Source: Halobacteriales archaeon QH_7_66_36 (lineage in GTDB: Archaea; Halobacteriota; Halobacteria; Halobacteriales; Haloarculaceae). Taken from it: DNA of 60,234 bases. The stretch covers positions 161,524 to 221,757 of the forward strand of contig PXQV01000011.1 of the NCBI GenBank assembly GCA_003021175.1, read 5' to 3'. The notes beneath the pieces are model-generated. The model searched no databases, was not told the DNA's origin, and saw only the letters and a list, made by a program, of their open reading frames with translations. Of this stretch, positions 12,970 to 60,234 are shown piece by piece. Both the position numbers and the translations under genes were made by a program. How positions within the stretch are numbered: position 1 is the stretch's first letter; each line of letters opens with the position of its first letter.

Positions 12970-13027
12970 CGTTCGATCGTGAGTCGCATCTCCGGTGGGT
13001 GGAGCGGCTGAAGGAAACCCCCGGGTG

Positions 13028-13192
13028 TCAGCTGTTCGTGACGTGCTCTTCGAGCAGTTCGATCTCGTGGGCCTCGCGGTCGGCGGTGAACGCGTACAGG
13101 TCGTCACACTCCGCCGGCGAGCGGTCACTCGGTGCTTCGCGGGTCATCAGCTGGTCCCACGCGTCCTGCAAGTCATCGACCCGGACCGCGAG
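13028..13192 (-). pseudogene. Truncated duplicate of the 3' end of the VOC gene at 14143
   Basis: These 165 bp align without gaps to 14143-14307 with about 15 differences, and encode LAVRVDDLQDAWDQLMTREA and EIELLEEHVTNS, the last 54 residues of the VOC protein. The match ends abruptly at 13192; further upstream the frame continues to 13285 with unrelated residues and no proper start. Most differences are third-position or conservative, so the fragment was copied some time ago or came from a related gene. It is not expected to fold alone. Confidence 0.8.
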
Positions 13193-13309
13193 ACTGCAGG
13201 GGCGTTCCTCGGCGATATCTACTGTCCGTCTCCGTCGTTCGCCCGTGGAGAGGACTACCGGACACGTAGAAGATCGAACGGCCACGTTCTGCGAGAAACC
13301 GAACGGCTC

Positions 13310-13465
13310 TCACTCGTCGTCCGAGTTCACGTCGAACTCGTCGGTCTCGCGGTCGGTCTCTTCCGCGAGCGCGTCCACGAGCCGTTCACCGAGTTCGTCG
13401 GCGGCCTCCGCCACCGCCTCTATCTCTTCGTCCGTCATCGGTCGGTCGCGTTCACGTCGTGCCAT
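13310..13465 (-). CDS. Small acidic protein of unknown function in the toxin-antitoxin island
   Basis: 51 residues, ATG at 13465: MARRERDRPMTDEEIEAVAE, then a helical segment (AADELGERLVDALAEE) and an acidic end. Codon use and acidity look haloarchaeal, so I think it is real. It follows the broken relE by 50 bp on the same strand and may be the last gene of that unit, or an antitoxin whose toxin has been lost. No family recognised. Confidence 0.5.
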   Translation of the reverse strand: MARRERDRPMTDEEIEAVAEAADELGERLVDALAEETDRETDEFDVNSDDE

Positions 13466-13515
13466 GCTTCGAACCTCCTGATGAGCAGCTTCGTTCCGTC
13501 CTGAAGCGTGGCCGG

Positions 13516-13773
13516 TTACAGATATCGGTCGTACACGTTTCGCCTGTGCCCGACGGCGATCACGACCAACACGTCGTCATTTCGGTGCCAGTCGATAATC
13601 GCGCGGTAGTCGCCCGCGCGGAGGCTGTAGAACTCCGAGCCGGACAACGACTTCAACCTGTGCTCCGTCCACTCGGTGGCTTCTTCGGCCTTGTCGACGA
13701 TTCGTTCCTGAACCGGCGGGTCGAGGTCCGCCAGTTGGTCGACCGCCTAGTCCGAGAACGCGACCTCAGCCAT
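13516..13773 (-). pseudogene. relE: RelE-type toxin gene interrupted by an in-frame amber codon
   Basis: Translation from ATG 13773 gives MAEVAFSD, then TAG at 13749-13747, then AVDQLADLDPPVQERIVDK and onward to GDYRAIIDWHRND and VGHRRNVYDRYL, ending in TAA. The part after the stop is a complete RelE/ParE-fold RNase toxin with the usual LRAGDYRAII strand and a C-terminal HRRNVYDR. Related haloarchaeal proteins have an ordinary residue such as Lys at the stop position, so one base change (AAG to TAG) would silence the toxin. No good internal start exists near the stop. The start overlaps the antitoxin end by 8 bp. Confidence 0.85.
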
Positions 13774-14032
13774 CGATGCCGAGGCGACGCTTCACGTCGG
13801 CGGCGGACTGCGTCTCGCCGTGGGCCGCCTGCTCGTGACCCGTCTCCATGTCCGCAGCGAACGAGTCGCTGTATTCGAGCTCACCCTCTTCGAGGGCGAC
13901 CAGCTCGTCGAGGTGTTCCAGCGCCTCGGCACGCGTCTCGCCGTGGCCCGTCGTCTCGCGGGCCTCGTCCGTCGCGAACCACTCCCCGCCCTCGAGCGTG
14001 AGGGTGATTCGGGCCTCCGCGTCGATGCTCAT
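13766..14032 (-). CDS. RelB/HicB-like antitoxin
   Basis: 88 residues, MSIDAEARITLTLEGGEWFA then TDEARETTGHGETRAEALEHLDELVALEEGEL. This is a HicB-like partial RNase H fold followed by a charged helix and ADVKRRLGIDG. In haloarchaea this antitoxin type is found directly before relE-like toxins, as here (8-bp overlap). The frame is open to 14146 but the ATG at 14032 gives the family N-terminus. It is intact although its toxin carries a stop codon. Confidence 0.75.
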   Translation of the reverse strand: MSIDAEARITLTLEGGEWFATDEARETTGHGETRAEALEHLDELVALEEGELEYSDSFAADMETGHEQAAHGETQSAADVKRRLGIDG

Positions 14033-14142
14033 ACCGTACGTAGGCTGTCGGCGTGGCAAAACTCTTCGGGCGTCACGACGCTTCGTCTCGGCGACGCGCT
14101 CCCGATACGGACGGAGAGCGCCGAGTCGTCCCCGTCTCGGTA

Positions 14143-14919
14143 TCACCCGTTCGTGACGTGCTCCTCGAGCAGTTCGATCTCGTGGGCCTCGTGGTCGGCG
14201 GTGAACGCGTACATGTCGTCACACTCCGCCGGCGAGCGGTCGCCCGGTGCCTCGCGGGTCATCAGCTGGTCCCACGCGTCCTGTAGGTCGTCCACACGCA
14301 CGGCGAGGTGGCCCCACGCGTCGCCCATCGTGTAGGAGCGCCCGTCGTAGTTGTAGGTCAACTCGACGGACATCGCCTCCCGGGGCGCGTCGGCGGGAGC
14401 CATGAAGTAGTTCGCGAAGCTGTCGGCCTCCCACCGGCCCGCGTGCTCGTACTCGAACTTCCGGGTCCAGAAGCCGAGCGCCTCGTCGGCGTCCTCGACG
14501 CGGATCATGGTGTGATCCAGCGAGTAGAGCGGGCCGTAGTCCCGCTTGACGATCTCGATCTCGTGGCCGTCGGGGTCCTTGATGAACGCGTAGCGGTTGC
14601 CGCAGGACTCGGGGTCGCGGTAGTCCCCGACGCCCTCGGCCATCAGTTGGTCGTAGCGCTCTTGGAGTTCGTCCTCGGGCACGCGGACGGCGATGTGCCC
14701 CCACGCGTCGCCCATCTCGTCGGGTTCGGAGTCGTGATTCGAGGTGAGTTCGAGCACCGCGCCCGCGTCGTGGGCGTCCTCGGGACCGAGATACACGTTC
14801 GTGAACGTGTCCGCCTCCCAGCGGCCCTTCTCCTCGTAGCCGAGATGGGTCGTGTACCAGTCGAGCGACGCGTCCAGATCCGCGACGCGCATCATCACGT
14901 GGTCGAGCGGAGCGTACAT
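14143..14919 (-). CDS. Two-domain VOC (glyoxalase/bleomycin-resistance) family protein
   Basis: 258 residues made of two tandem vicinal-oxygen-chelate modules. Module 1 has LDHVMMRVADLDASLDWYTT, then GHIAVRVPEDELQERYDQLM and IKDPDGHEIEIVKR. Module 2 repeats the plan (LDHTMIRVEDADEALGFWTR, GHLAVRVDDLQDAWDQLM, EAHEIELLEEH). Each keeps an early His and a late Glu as metal ligands. The layout resembles lactoylglutathione lyase (GloA); haloarchaea generally lack glutathione, so the true substrate is uncertain. ATG at 14919 is preferred to the adjacent GTG at 14922. A diverged copy of the 3' end lies at 13028. Confidence 0.8.
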   Translation of the reverse strand: MYAPLDHVMMRVADLDASLDWYTTHLGYEEKGRWEADTFTNVYLGPEDAHDAGAVLELTSNHDSEPDEMGDAWGHIAVRVPEDELQERYDQLMAEGVGDYRDPESCGNRYAFIKDPDGHEIEIVKRDYGPLYSLDHTMIRVEDADEALGFWTRKFEYEHAGRWEADSFANYFMAPADAPREAMSVELTYNYDGRSYTMGDAWGHLAVRVDDLQDAWDQLMTREAPGDRSPAECDDMYAFTADHEAHEIELLEEHVTNG

Positions 14920-21746: not shown

Positions 21747-21819
21747 GCGCTCTCGACGACACACTTCTCCGTTTTATGATCCCGCCAGCGACAGCACCCG
21801 ACCGGCGCGGCCGTGGGTA

Positions 21820-21919
21820 GTGTTTAGACACGAGATGGCTGGCCGAACAAATGCGGGCGGGCGGGACTAGAAGCCCCTCGCCGCTCCGGTCACCGCAACT
21901 CCACGACTTCACTAGACAG
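21820..21919. mobile_element. Dispersed non-coding element, degenerate copy A
   Basis: About 100 bp after the L12 terminator. The left end AGTGTTTAGACACG resembles the AGTGTTCAGACGAA end of copy B (33829). The core GGCGGGACTAGAAGCCCC corresponds to GGTGGGACTGAAAGGGGC in B and to AACAGCTGAAAGCCCTCG in copy C. A weak inverted match TGTTTAG (21821-21827) / CTAGACA (21912-21918) may mark its limits. No coding frame. The 50 bp up to the next gene are also empty of recognisable signals. Confidence 0.45.
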
Positions 21920-21971
21920 CACCACGTGACGCAAGCGGAGATTCAAATAGGAAGCCGAGACCAACCACGGG

Positions 21972-33572: not shown

Positions 33573-33828
33573 ACGCCTCTCTCCTCGTCGCGGGGCCTAA
33601 ACCCCGCTGATTCTGCTGGCATGATCTGTCGATAGTGGACGGTCGACTGCCGGTACAAGCGGTGCGAACGGTTTCGCGGCCGGCCGACGGCCGTATGAGG
33701 CCCGGGTGCCGGACCGGTCCACCGAGCGCGGCGGCTATCGCATGAGAAGCGCGTCGTGGGCCGCCGTGTGCGTCACGGCTGGGCCGTGTGCCGGATCGAG
33801 CAAAAGCATTGTCCTGAGCAGTCCAATA
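33573..33828. other. Gene-free region upstream of metS with an 18-bp inverted repeat
   Basis: GCGGGG-CCTAAA-CCCCGC at 33590-33607 is a perfect 6-bp stem whose loop holds the only TATA-like sequence upstream of metS (TTTAGG on the minus strand, about 25 nt before the ATG). It could be an operator or a leader hairpin. The rest is GC-rich; a 24-codon frame on the minus strand (33806-33735, MLLLDPAHGPAVTHT...) has plausible codon use but is too short to call. Confidence 0.4.
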
Positions 33829-34050
33829 GTGTTCAGACGAACGGGTCGTCGCCCGGCTGCGAAACTGCGTTGGGTGGGACTGAAAGGGGCCGTCATCGGC
33901 GGCTTCGCCGCCGATTGCTCGGGAGAGCGCTGCTCTCTCGGTGGGCGCTCGATCCGGCCCCGACGACGCAAGCCGCGAGGCGACGCAGTCGCCTCGGCCC
34001 GCTCCACCTCGTTACTCTCATCATCTCCAAAATCATCCTTATTTGAACAC
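33829..34050. mobile_element. Dispersed non-coding element, copy B (MITE-like)
   Basis: The 222-bp unit starts GTGTTCAGACGAAC (33829) and ends TTGAACAC (34043-34050), whose complement is GTGTTCAA, so the ends are inverted repeats with one mismatch. The core GGTGGGACTGAAAGGGGCCG (33874-33893) is shared with other copies, followed by hairpins such as GGCGGCTTCGCCGCC and CGAGGCGACGCAGTCGCCTCG. No coding frame is convincing. It abuts the 3' end of the gene on the right by 15 bp. It is probably a non-autonomous transposable unit or a structured RNA gene repeated in the genome. Confidence 0.6.
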
Positions 34051-34065
34051 GCCCGTCTCTGCGTC

Positions 34066-42272: not shown

Positions 42273-42330
42273 ACGTAGTCAGTCGCCCGCAGGAGTCATA
42301 AGCCCTCCCTTCGCGTCGCTCCGCGCAGTA

Positions 42331-42604
42331 GTGTTCAGATACGCAGTTTGCAGCGGTAGGGCTGGTGGGAACAGCTGAAAGCCCTCGACTGTCTCGGCTT
42401 CTGCTCACGGGCTGGAGGCCCGTTCGCACGGCCCGAGGGACCCGTCCCTCGCTGCCCGCGGCTCGCTGCGCGCGTTCGCTCGCGATGCTCGCTCTCGTGC
42501 TTGCGTCGCCGGGGTTCGCCGAGCCACCTCGCCCTTTCAATCCACCAGGATTGCTGGTTGTCGCGCCGAGCGCGAGTAGCCAGTTCCTCTCCTTAGCTGA
42601 ACAC
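42331..42604. mobile_element. Dispersed non-coding element, copy C (MITE-like, best preserved ends)
   Basis: The ends are perfect 8-bp inverted repeats: GTGTTCAG (42331-42338) and CTGAACAC (42597-42604). Inside, the plus strand has GGTGGGAACAGCTGAAAGCC and further on CGGCCCGAGGGACCCGTCCC; the minus strand from the right end has GGTGGATTGAAAGGGCGAGG. Both half-motifs match copies B and D, so the element carries its core twice in opposite orientation. No true protein is encoded; a frame at 42365-42640 is rich in Arg, Pro and Ser and unlike the neighbours. No target duplication is obvious. A TATTTAAG box 23-30 bp beyond the right end could start a transcript exactly at the inverted repeat. Confidence 0.6.
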
Positions 42605-42724
42605 CGTCCTCCGAGTCGGACGAACCTATTTAAGAGATGACGCGGCCACCCGGCGTGTGACCTGAGTTCGACCCTGCAGGGACGGGCGTGCCGGGCACCC
42701 CTGCAGGCGCCGTCGCCCGGCCTG
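42605..42724. other. TATA box and paired CCTGCAGG palindromes between repeat C and the PUA gene
   Basis: TATTTAAG (42627-42634) is a good TATA on either strand. Two copies of CCTGCAGG lie at 42673-42680 and 42700-42707; they are palindromes and can also pair with one another as CCTGCAGGG/CCCTGCAGG, enclosing a GC loop. This lies just after the stop of the PUA gene (minus strand), so the hairpin may end that transcript, or the region may produce a short RNA to the right. Confidence 0.4.
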
Positions 42725-58122: not shown

Positions 58123-59077
58123 TTACTCCGGGAAGATGCTCTCCGGGAGGTACGCCGACACGGTCCAGTTGGGCGCGTCGACCACCTCGTTGATCTTCAG
58201 GTCGACGACCGCCGAACAGAGGATGTACGCCTCGCCGCGGGTGAGCCCGCGCTCCTCGTGGCAGTGTTCTATCATGTGCCGGACGGCCTTCTTCGTCGCC
58301 TCGATCAGGTCCGAGTCGATGCCGGTCGTGGCGTACATCCGCTCGTCGCGGCCGGTCGGCGTGAACGGGCCGTCCGTCTCGAACTGCGGCTGGTCGATAC
58401 CCATGTCCGAGCGCACGTCGAAGCGCGCGGTGACGGACATCTCCGCCTCGATGCCGGTGACACACACCTCGCCGTCCCCCTGTCCGGCGTGGCAGTCACC
58501 CGTCGAGAACAGCGCGCCCTCTTCGCTCACGGGGAGATACAGCGTCGACCTCGCGGTGAGGTGTTTCACGTCCATGTTCCCACCCGTCGAGCGCGGCGGG
58601 AGCGTGTCGAGCGCGCCGTCGTCCTCGGGGGCGACGCCGATGACGCCCGGGAACGGGTCGAGGGGCACCTCGATGCCGTTCACGAAGTGGCCCACGTCGT
58701 CTTCGAGGTCCCACACGTGGATGCCCGCGTCGGGGAACTCCTCGGGGAGCAGCCCGAGTCCCATCTCCCCGGGCATGAAGACGTTGTACCTCCACCCTTG
58801 TGCTGGAGGTCGAGCAGCTCGACTTCGAGCACGTCACCCGGAGTCGCCCCCTCGACGGCGATCGGTCCCGTGAGCGGGTGGACCGGGTCGAAGCTCACGT
58901 CGGTCACGTCCGCGGCCGTCGATTCGAGGTCGAGCTGGCCGTCGACGGCGTCGCGACACTCGAACCGACCACCTCGCCCGGCTCGATCGTCAGGACGGGG
59001 TCGAGGCTGTTGTCGAAGCTGCGGTGGATGTTCGATTCGTCGTCGCTCAGGTGGTGGTCGACGGCGTGGCCCGCCAT
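58123..59077 (-). pseudogene. Acetamidase/formamidase family gene with two frameshifts
   Basis: Three frames make one protein. Part 1 (59077 to about 58976) reads MAGHAVDHHLSDDESNIHRS to TIEPGEVV; part 2 continues FECRDAVDGQLDLESTAADV to LLDLQHKG; part 3 (58776-58123) reads MPGEMGLGLLPEEFPDAGIH to the end AYLPESIFPE. One base is missing near 58974-58978 (GTCGGTTC for GTCCGGTTC) and one near 58786-58792 (GGAGGTAC for GGAGGGTAC). Otherwise it matches the intact paralogue that follows it. Both losses are in short C or G runs. It would be an amide hydrolase if the frames were restored. Confidence 0.85.
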
Positions 59078-59125
59078 ACGGTTACACACGCCAAGGCCTC
59101 CCAATGGCTTCGCAGGCCGGCAACC

Positions 59126-60043
59126 TCACACCGCGGCGTACGCGGTCACGACGACGGTGTCGTTGACGACCTCGCTCACCTTCAGGTCGACCGCGGCCGA
59201 ACAGAGCATGTACGCCTCCGTCCGCGAGAGGTCGTGTTCCGACGCGAGTTCGGCGATCATCGCGCGGACGGCCTCGCGGGACGCCTCGTTCACGTCGCCG
59301 CCGAGGCCCGCGACGGCGGTGACGGGGCCGTCACCGAGCGGTGCGTACGGACCCGCCGGGTCGAGCGCGGGCCCGTCGGCGTCGCGGTCGGCCAGTCGCA
59401 GACGGAGGCGTATCTGACCGGGAATCTCGATGGCGGTGATACACACCTCGCCGTCGCCCTGTGCAGCGTGCAGGTCGCCGACGGAGAACAGCCCGCCCGC
59501 GACCGCCACGGGAAGATACAGCGTCGACCCGGCGGTCAGATGTTTGATGTCGAGGTTGCCGCCGACGCGGCGCGGCGGTATCGTGGAGTGTGGTCCCGGT
59601 TCCGCGGGCACGACGCCGAGATTCTCCGGAAACGGCGCGAGCGGCACCTCGATACCCTGCCGGAAATGAGCCACGTCGTCGTCCAGATCCCACGTGTGGA
59701 CCGCGCCGTCCGGGAACTCCGCGGGGAGAAAGCCAGCCTCGGTCTCGCTCGGATACACGTACGTCCAGCCGATACCCTCGTGTTCGAGGCCGAGCACGTC
59801 CACCGCGAGCGTGTCACCCGGCTCCGCACCCTCGATGTAGATCGGGCCGGTCATCGGGTGGCCGGGCGCGTCAACCGCCTCCACGTCCGCGACGGTCGCG
59901 TCCTCGGGGAGTTGGCCGTCGGCCGCGTCGTGACACTCGACCGTCACCGTGTCGCCCGGGTCGACGGACAACACGGCGTCGCGGTCGCGGTCCCAGTCGT
60001 AGTGGACGTGGTCGGACTCGCGAGAGAGGTGGTGAGTAGCCAT
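59126..60043 (-). CDS. Acetamidase/formamidase family protein
   Basis: 305 residues. HPMTGPIYIEGAEPGDTLAV and PDGAVHTWDLDDDVAHFRQG are family blocks; GNLDIKHLTAGSTLYLPVAV and FSVGDLHAAQGDGEVCITAI hold the metal-binding and active-site residues, and AYMLCSAAVDLKVSEVVNDT ends the core. It hydrolyses short amides (formamide or acetamide type) to release ammonia. A TATA-like ACTATACC 22-32 nt before ATG 60043 gives a leaderless mRNA. The next gene on the strand is a frameshifted tandem copy, 48 bp away. Confidence 0.88.
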   Translation of the reverse strand: MATHHLSRESDHVHYDWDRDRDAVLSVDPGDTVTVECHDAADGQLPEDATVADVEAVDAPGHPMTGPIYIEGAEPGDTLAVDVLGLEHEGIGWTYVYPSETEAGFLPAEFPDGAVHTWDLDDDVAHFRQGIEVPLAPFPENLGVVPAEPGPHSTIPPRRVGGNLDIKHLTAGSTLYLPVAVAGGLFSVGDLHAAQGDGEVCITAIEIPGQIRLRLRLADRDADGPALDPAGPYAPLGDGPVTAVAGLGGDVNEASREAVRAMIAELASEHDLSRTEAYMLCSAAVDLKVSEVVNDTVVVTAYAAV

Positions 60044-60094
60044 GGCGGAGGTCGGACGCCGGGCGGTATAGTTCCTCGTCGTGAATCGCTGGTA

Positions 60095-60234
60095 ATGTCC
60101 AGCTAAGAGTGACTATAGAGACTGGACAGACAACGAGGTGTAGAAAGCCCCCGGACGCTCGACCGTCTGCTCGCGGCCGGTGGCCGTCTGTTCGCGGCTT
60201 CGCCGCTCACACGGCCCGAGGGACCGATAGTCCC
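60095..60234. mobile_element. Dispersed non-coding element, copy D, cut by the window end
   Basis: After a possible end ATGTCCAG (60096-60103) the sequence reads GAGGTGTAGAAAGCCCCCGG, then CTCGACCGTCTGCTCGCGG and later ACGGCCCGAGGGACC. Copy C has the same order: GCTGAAAGCCCTCGAC, CTTCTGCTCACGGGC, then ACGGCCCGAGGGACC. The block is therefore another member of the family. Its right end is outside the window and no gene is seen in it. Confidence 0.5.

Follow-up and report, generated by a model that had tools for sequence, protein, structure and literature searches.

A probable family of IS6-type miniature transposons with a conserved folded core in a haloarchaeal genome

A block near the 42-kb position of the window (the whole 60,234-nt stretch analysed, G000:C8:161524-221757) raises the question of what kind of sequence lies there. 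An earlier note had grouped this block (copy C) with three others (copies A, B and D) as one dispersed family of structured, non-coding elements with inverted ends, present in scores per genome, and had offered two readings, namely miniature transposons mobilised by a resident transposase or a multi-copy RNA family. The host genome (G000; 2.6 Mb in 18 contigs) was searched with copy C as a BLASTN query, with a left-arm sequence profile built from 27 copies (R1) and with a covariance model of the core (R2). Copy C gave 61 matches, the left-arm profile gave at least 150 copies, which exceeds the predicted scores, and 112 paired elements were counted in 1.61 Mb of the genome. It is likely that copy C belongs to a family of non-autonomous, IS6-type mini-transposons of this size, with a folded core as their cargo.

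Table 1. Element copies and their parts in the window (positions in the window; E, E-value).
Feature	Position	Strand	Description
Copy A	21816..21923	+	Degenerate; left arm GGTAGTGTTTAG..., core lost, right end ...CTAGACAGCACC; R1 E=5.4e-7
Copy B	33825..34054	+	Subfamily A; left arm 33829-33893, GGTGGGACTGAAAGGGGCC at 33873-33891; R1 E=1.8e-19
Copy C, left 8-bp flank	42319..42326	.	Candidate target duplication, CTCCGCGC; 6/8 vs right flank
Copy C	42327..42608	-	Complete element; ends AGTAGTGTTCAG / CTGAACACCGTC, exact inverted; core model match
Copy C, folded core	42429..42550	-	R2 42.2 bits, E=1.5e-6
Copy C, right 8-bp flank	42609..42616	.	CTCCGAGT
Copy D	60091..60234	-	Right arm and part of interior; signature GGTAATGTCCAGCTAAGAGTGAC...TGTAGAAAGCCCCC

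The four copies do form one dispersed family (Table 1): model matches place A, B and C in it, and D is recognised by the right arm that it keeps where the contig ends. The description of the family as structured and bounded by inverted ends was borne out by copy C, whose ends are exact and whose core is matched by the covariance model. The 8-bp flanks of copy A (CGGCCGTG / ACGTGACG) agree at only 2 of 8 positions; copy B has a truncated interior, the right end TTTGAACACGCCC, a core model match of E = 0.0025 and decayed flanks (3/8 identity); and copy D is cut off by the end of the contig, where the window also ends (C8:221757). Copy C had been said to carry its core in both orientations, and both words are indeed present, but they are not two cores. 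The word GAAAGCCC, read on the + strand at 42377-42384, is the 3' side of the closing stem and the complement of GGGCTTTC (the 3' stem strand, the 5' strand being GAAAGGGC), so that what had been taken for two cores are opposite sides of a single hairpin. The window also holds two tandem gene-scale duplications (58447-59725 and 13024-14307; 300 nt of 73% and 169 nt of 91% identity), which are unrelated to the elements.

The likeness of these GC-rich spacers might be due to chance or base composition, and bare words in the window are in keeping with this, as GTGTTCAG with one mismatch was matched 41 times against 32 expected and GTGGGACTGAAAG with up to three mismatches 7 times against 11 expected, so that neither the 8-base nor the 13-base word is significant alone. 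The significance of the family comes from whole-element matches and not from such short words. Left-arm matches in the host genome with E-values down to 2e-20, together with the target duplications, covariation and haloarchaea-only distribution described below, refute an origin of the likeness by chance.

A typical element has about 200 bases, with a range of about 120-500 bp in the host genome, and no transposase gene lies within it. On the strand that reads GGTGGGACTGAAAGGGGCC, the left arm starts with GTGTTCAG and measures 44 nt, or 40 nt in another subfamily, and the right arm, whose length is fixed, terminates in CTGAACAC; the extended ends, as established from 88 paired elements of two sister genomes, are GGYRGTGTTCAG / CTGAACACTACC. 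The core starts with GGTGGGACTGAAAGGGGC and terminates in GGGGCTTTC, and its interior of about 100 to 400 nt holds extra nested hairpin modules in many copies, the whole interior being precisely missing in some. Palindromic modules with 3-base spacers (GAGGGACC-NNN-GGTCCCTC, GGCGGC-TTC-GCCGCC) recur in varied, nested combinations across the elements of the host genome, as if the modules were themselves insertable units.

The elements are placed almost entirely between genes (105 of 112 intergenic, 3 within genes and 4 at gene edges). There is a mild excess in gaps between divergent genes (38 of 105 elements against 234 of 925 gaps) and no strong preference in orientation relative to the neighbouring genes (33 to 23), a pattern that does not fit a role as transcription terminators. 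In trpA (tryptophan synthase alpha; L002:1170-1660, G000:C10 at ~58.5 kb), an interior module of the element is inserted in frame, adding about 55 Ser/Gly-rich residues between the two halves of the Pfam domain. Rickettsia palindromic elements are likewise tolerated in frame within protein genes; they differ in that the copies described here are almost all intergenic and are unrelated to them in sequence.

Evidence of past mobility was obtained by comparing the host genome with its sister G001. Among the 88 paired elements from both, the 8-bp flanks had a mean identity of 0.494, against 0.280 for 2000 shuffled pairings (maximum 0.337), and flanks matching at six or more of eight positions were found in 32 elements where 0.8 would be expected, several elements having perfect 8/8 target duplications. 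When 1.61 Mb of G000 was compared with 0.62 Mb of G001, alignment of both flanks was possible for 42 of the G001 element sites, of which 13 were precisely empty in G000, and two empty sites were found in the reverse direction. Empty sites in sister strains had been proposed as a check by the earlier note, and between these sister species they were found in both directions. They could also represent precise losses instead of gains, and for the one site that was compared with an outgroup, genomes G002-G005 were too distant to polarise the change. Arm identity between sampled copies of G000 and G001 never exceeds 88%, which gives no hint of recent movement in the host genome, and its copies are probably immobile relics.

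A further 25 sites are filled in both sister genomes, with flanks about 94% identical and fourfold sites 12.3% diverged. Pairs in the same orientation at these sites have arm identities of 0.82 and 0.76, against 0.79 and 0.69 for random pairs; the orthologue is the best match at only 3 of the 25, and at four the orientation is opposite. Wholesale exchange of elements, as the low identity of orthologues might imply, is weakened as an explanation by the fourfold-site divergence, and old age may account for part of the low identity. The flipped sites hint that some elements were replaced, or that paired elements were lost differentially. At shared sites such as G000:C14 ~207.07 kb and G000:C17 ~136.16 kb the element is in the opposite orientation or of another subfamily relative to G001, within flanks that are 93-98% identical.

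A search for the element ends in other haloarchaea identified an autonomous partner, an insertion sequence of 697-698 bp with the ends GGYRGTGTTCAGATAAG, flanked by perfect 8-bp duplications at five of the loci inspected. It encodes a transposase ORF of about 212 aa that belongs to the IS6 family (NCBIfam transpos_IS6 NF033587, 194 bits against a cut-off of 125; Pfam PF13610). The 8-bp duplications had also suggested ISH6 as partner, which was rejected as the transposase scored 15 bits for ISH6 against 194 bits for IS6. Intermediate-sized elements (215-592 bp) with identical 17-bp ends, several of them with perfect 8/8 duplications and most with variants of the core, were found in Halorhabdus tiamatea (G025) and in G006, which we take to be Halorhabdus utahensis. 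The miniature-transposon reading is thus upheld by the duplications, the empty sites and an autonomous element with identical ends, and the full-length transposase sought was found, although not where it had been predicted. The transposase had been supposed to be resident, but neither the host genome nor its closest relative G001 gave a match to an IS6 transposase (E <= 1e-5), and no Pfam IS6 domain was found in G000, G001 or G003. The copies therefore look orphaned, the moving enzyme being deduced from the ends. An IS6-family transposase, either formerly resident or acting from outside, would have moved the elements in trans, and would have recognised their ends alone.

Two candidate structures in the host genome were also considered. 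A pair of inverted ends 1486 bp apart (C18:9163-10649) encloses ordinary genes and two of the miniature elements, and was rejected as an autonomous element. At L111:10953-11860 (G000:C14 ~161-162 kb), degenerate element ends 907 bp apart with flanks matching at 6/8 enclose a small ORF, which by eye looks like a DUF433-type antitoxin.

Miniature IS6 elements (MITEs) are known in haloarchaea, namely MITEHarch3 of ISfinder (PMC6807381) and two IS6 MITEs of 227 and 336 bp (PMC7986276). The present elements are like them in being short and geneless, with IS6-type ends starting GG, 8-bp target duplications and a haloarchaeal host, the comparison with MITEHarch3 and the two IS6 MITEs covering names and sizes. 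As in archaeal IS6 MITEs, the inverted ends (TIRs) are held in common with an autonomous IS, the target duplications (TSDs) are of 8 bp and no transposase lies inside, and the elements of the host genome look like orphaned IS6-type MITEs, a known kind. Neither a conserved folded core nor a haloarchaea-wide distribution was found described in those two papers, and a search for the element sequence in the text of papers matched only unrelated primers. Abundant transposase-free palindromic repeats, the PATEs and SMRs, have also been reported from Haloquadratum walsbyi, along with 'SwitchRepeats', in which distinct repeats occupy one position (PMC3119063). The latter resemble the swapped elements at the sites shared by G000 and G001. 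PATEs have neither TIR nor TSD and SMRs have inverted ends without TSD, whereas the present family has both; a PATE or IS605-type origin (no TIR, no TSD, subterminal palindromes) was rejected on the same grounds.

The core is distributed far more widely than the elements of the host genome. Its covariance model (E <= 1e-6, at most 12 copies scored per genome) was run on 295 genomes of the phylum and matched 39, all of them Halobacteriales and together most of the haloarchaea tested. A covariance-model search, as the earlier note had advised, thus bore out its expectation of relatives in many haloarchaea; no match was obtained in 14 further Halobacteriales genomes or in 242 genomes outside the order. 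An exact 21-mer was found in at least 108 stretches, every record among the matches listed being haloarchaeal, and the 21-mer was present in 39 plasmid records, of which those named are haloarchaeal. The earlier note had such blocks often misread as Arg/Pro-rich proteins; in annotated plasmids, only 3 of 39 matches lay under a 'hypothetical protein', and the exact core pattern was not found among IMG/VR viral contigs. Halobacterium sp. DL1 (G084) has 38 cores, about half of them in head-to-head pairs without IS6 ends, and G290 has single cores with a different 5' domain; no IS6 ends were found at the cores of either genome. In other genera an IS6-like right end (at least 10 of 12 bases) accompanies 15 of 83 cores, against about 1.6 expected. 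As cores are widespread without IS6 ends, the core is older and broader than its IS6 association, and far older than this genus, and in other haloarchaea it would spread or persist without such ends, often as head-to-head pairs. In some lineages another conserved domain rich in G, ...GTCGGCTGGGGAGG..GTGTGGGCTGTG..., precedes the core (L158 and L538-L559 of G290, Natronorubrum L226 and Halopiger L241).

The core of ~110 nt folds as one long hairpin. Alignment of 43 cores with MAFFT, in which structure was not used, yielded 29 pairs, and 95.0% of cells were paired, compared with 71.8% when shuffled and at most 51.7% with slid partners. Double changes numbered 262 against 79, the covariation score was 0.552 against 0.145, and none of 500 shuffles reached any of five fold measures. 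The stem begins with GAAAG/CTTTC, followed by an unpairable GGG/GGG internal loop, 13 hypervariable pairs and then short helices separated by the conserved unpaired motifs GACGCAAGCAC and GCGCAGCGAG. Across genera the 13-bp main stem has been almost wholly rewritten by compensatory changes, while hardly any variation is seen in the GGG/GGG loop or in a 5' GGGNGGG. G-U pairs of the main stem outnumber A-C (135 to 29), far above the ratio of 1.2-1.4 predicted from composition, a figure that is indicative as the copies are related, and this excess marks one strand as the folded one. The same asymmetry excludes a purely double-stranded cruciform role and is compatible with single-stranded DNA. These patterns in the aligned copies suggest that the hairpin is under strong, strand-specific constraint, and point to a job for it. 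The core would act as a folded single strand, either as RNA transcribed through the element or as single-stranded DNA that replication or transposition exposes, and the part recognised would be the G-rich stem tip.

It is improbable that the paired stems are a functionless by-product of template switching (quasi-palindrome correction). Such a process would suit elements that are rich in palindromes and whose interiors are precisely lost in some copies. It would, however, erase mismatched loops, yet GGG stands opposite GGG in 246 of 260 stems and the loop is pairable in 4, in a search that did not require it; 55 further pair types and the strand-asymmetric G-U excess also speak against correction.

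Whether the folded strand is RNA or DNA was weighed on the same features. The core is possibly, though doubtfully, a multi-copy structured RNA or processed RNA motif, for which the IS6 ends would be one lineage's means of spread. Its covariation-supported, conserved fold is of the kind that defines structured RNAs, and the depth of compensatory change, the strand-specific G-U excess, the fixed internal loops, the occurrence of the core without IS6 ends in many genera and fold energies better than those of shuffles (z -1.4 to -4.0) all agree with it. Against this, no Rfam family was found (under gathering and E-value thresholds only tRNAs were matched in the window, and five core loci gave only sub-threshold miRNA and RNase MRP matches), and the 33 to 23 orientation bias is slight for such an RNA. 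The hairpin spacers also suit DNA over RNA tetraloops. Perfect palindromes in 45.7 kb of elements comprise 156 with 3-base and 7 with 4-base spacers, the latter rarer than in 230 kb of background (145 and 106). DNA mini-hairpins with GNA-type loops favour 3-base spacers, and their near-exclusive use here, in apical and nested hairpins, is as expected of DNA hairpins. Were the RNA reading true, many cores should give a discrete signal from the GGTGGGACTG strand.

Just as tentatively, the core may be a transposon-carried signal in the form of a single-stranded DNA hairpin (for replication, recombination or a host factor), with a logic like that of REP/BIME or attC. Besides the spacer bias, the head-to-head pairs, as in BIMEs, and the near-exclusive intergenic placement with its mild divergent-gene excess are consistent with this. 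REP/BIME sequences with their RAYT are alike in their many intergenic copies, hairpin units and, in some genera, head-to-head pairs; the TIR and 8-bp TSD of the present genus are unlike them. A REP/RAYT system as such was rejected, with one PF01797 protein in G000 and none in the core-rich genomes G001, G124, G041 and G058. Several copy-rich genomes have no Y1 transposase, the type of enzyme that serves REP/RAYT and PATE elements, and this also weighs against the DNA hairpin signal. RNA is therefore not favoured over DNA for the folded core, and of the earlier proposal of a multi-copy RNA family the constrained, strand-specific fold stands, while its assignment to RNA is no more likely than one to single-stranded DNA, which fits equally well.

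The invariant G-tracts of the core permit a further, speculative suggestion. Of 260 cores, 224 keep the four tracts (GGGNGGG and both loop strands) in full; the models or patterns used to retrieve these loci included the upstream tracts. In variant cores with a GG/GG loop, all five have GGNGG upstream, while GGGNGGG accompanies 167 of 190 cores of the GGG/GGG type, although the five variants may be of one shared origin. Tract lengths thus change together, as would be needed for a quadruplex of three or two tetrads. The cytoplasm of haloarchaea has very high K+. Judged from these sequence patterns, the core might be a junction of duplex and G-quadruplex, stabilised by K+ in RNA or single-stranded DNA and carried by a haloarchaea-wide class of mobile elements, although we regard this as unlikely on balance.

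A haloarchaea-wide folded core was not found described in the literature searched, and the core, seemingly undescribed there, ranks among the most abundant structured sequences that haloarchaeal genomes contain. Through it a transposon family is tied to a fold that an entire order has conserved, and it offers a natural system for asking whether multi-molar K+ selects G-quadruplex structures. A functional core would represent a REP-like or RNA-based layer of haloarchaeal genome organisation, which is open to test in cultured Halorhabdus, Halobacterium sp. DL1 and Haloarcula.
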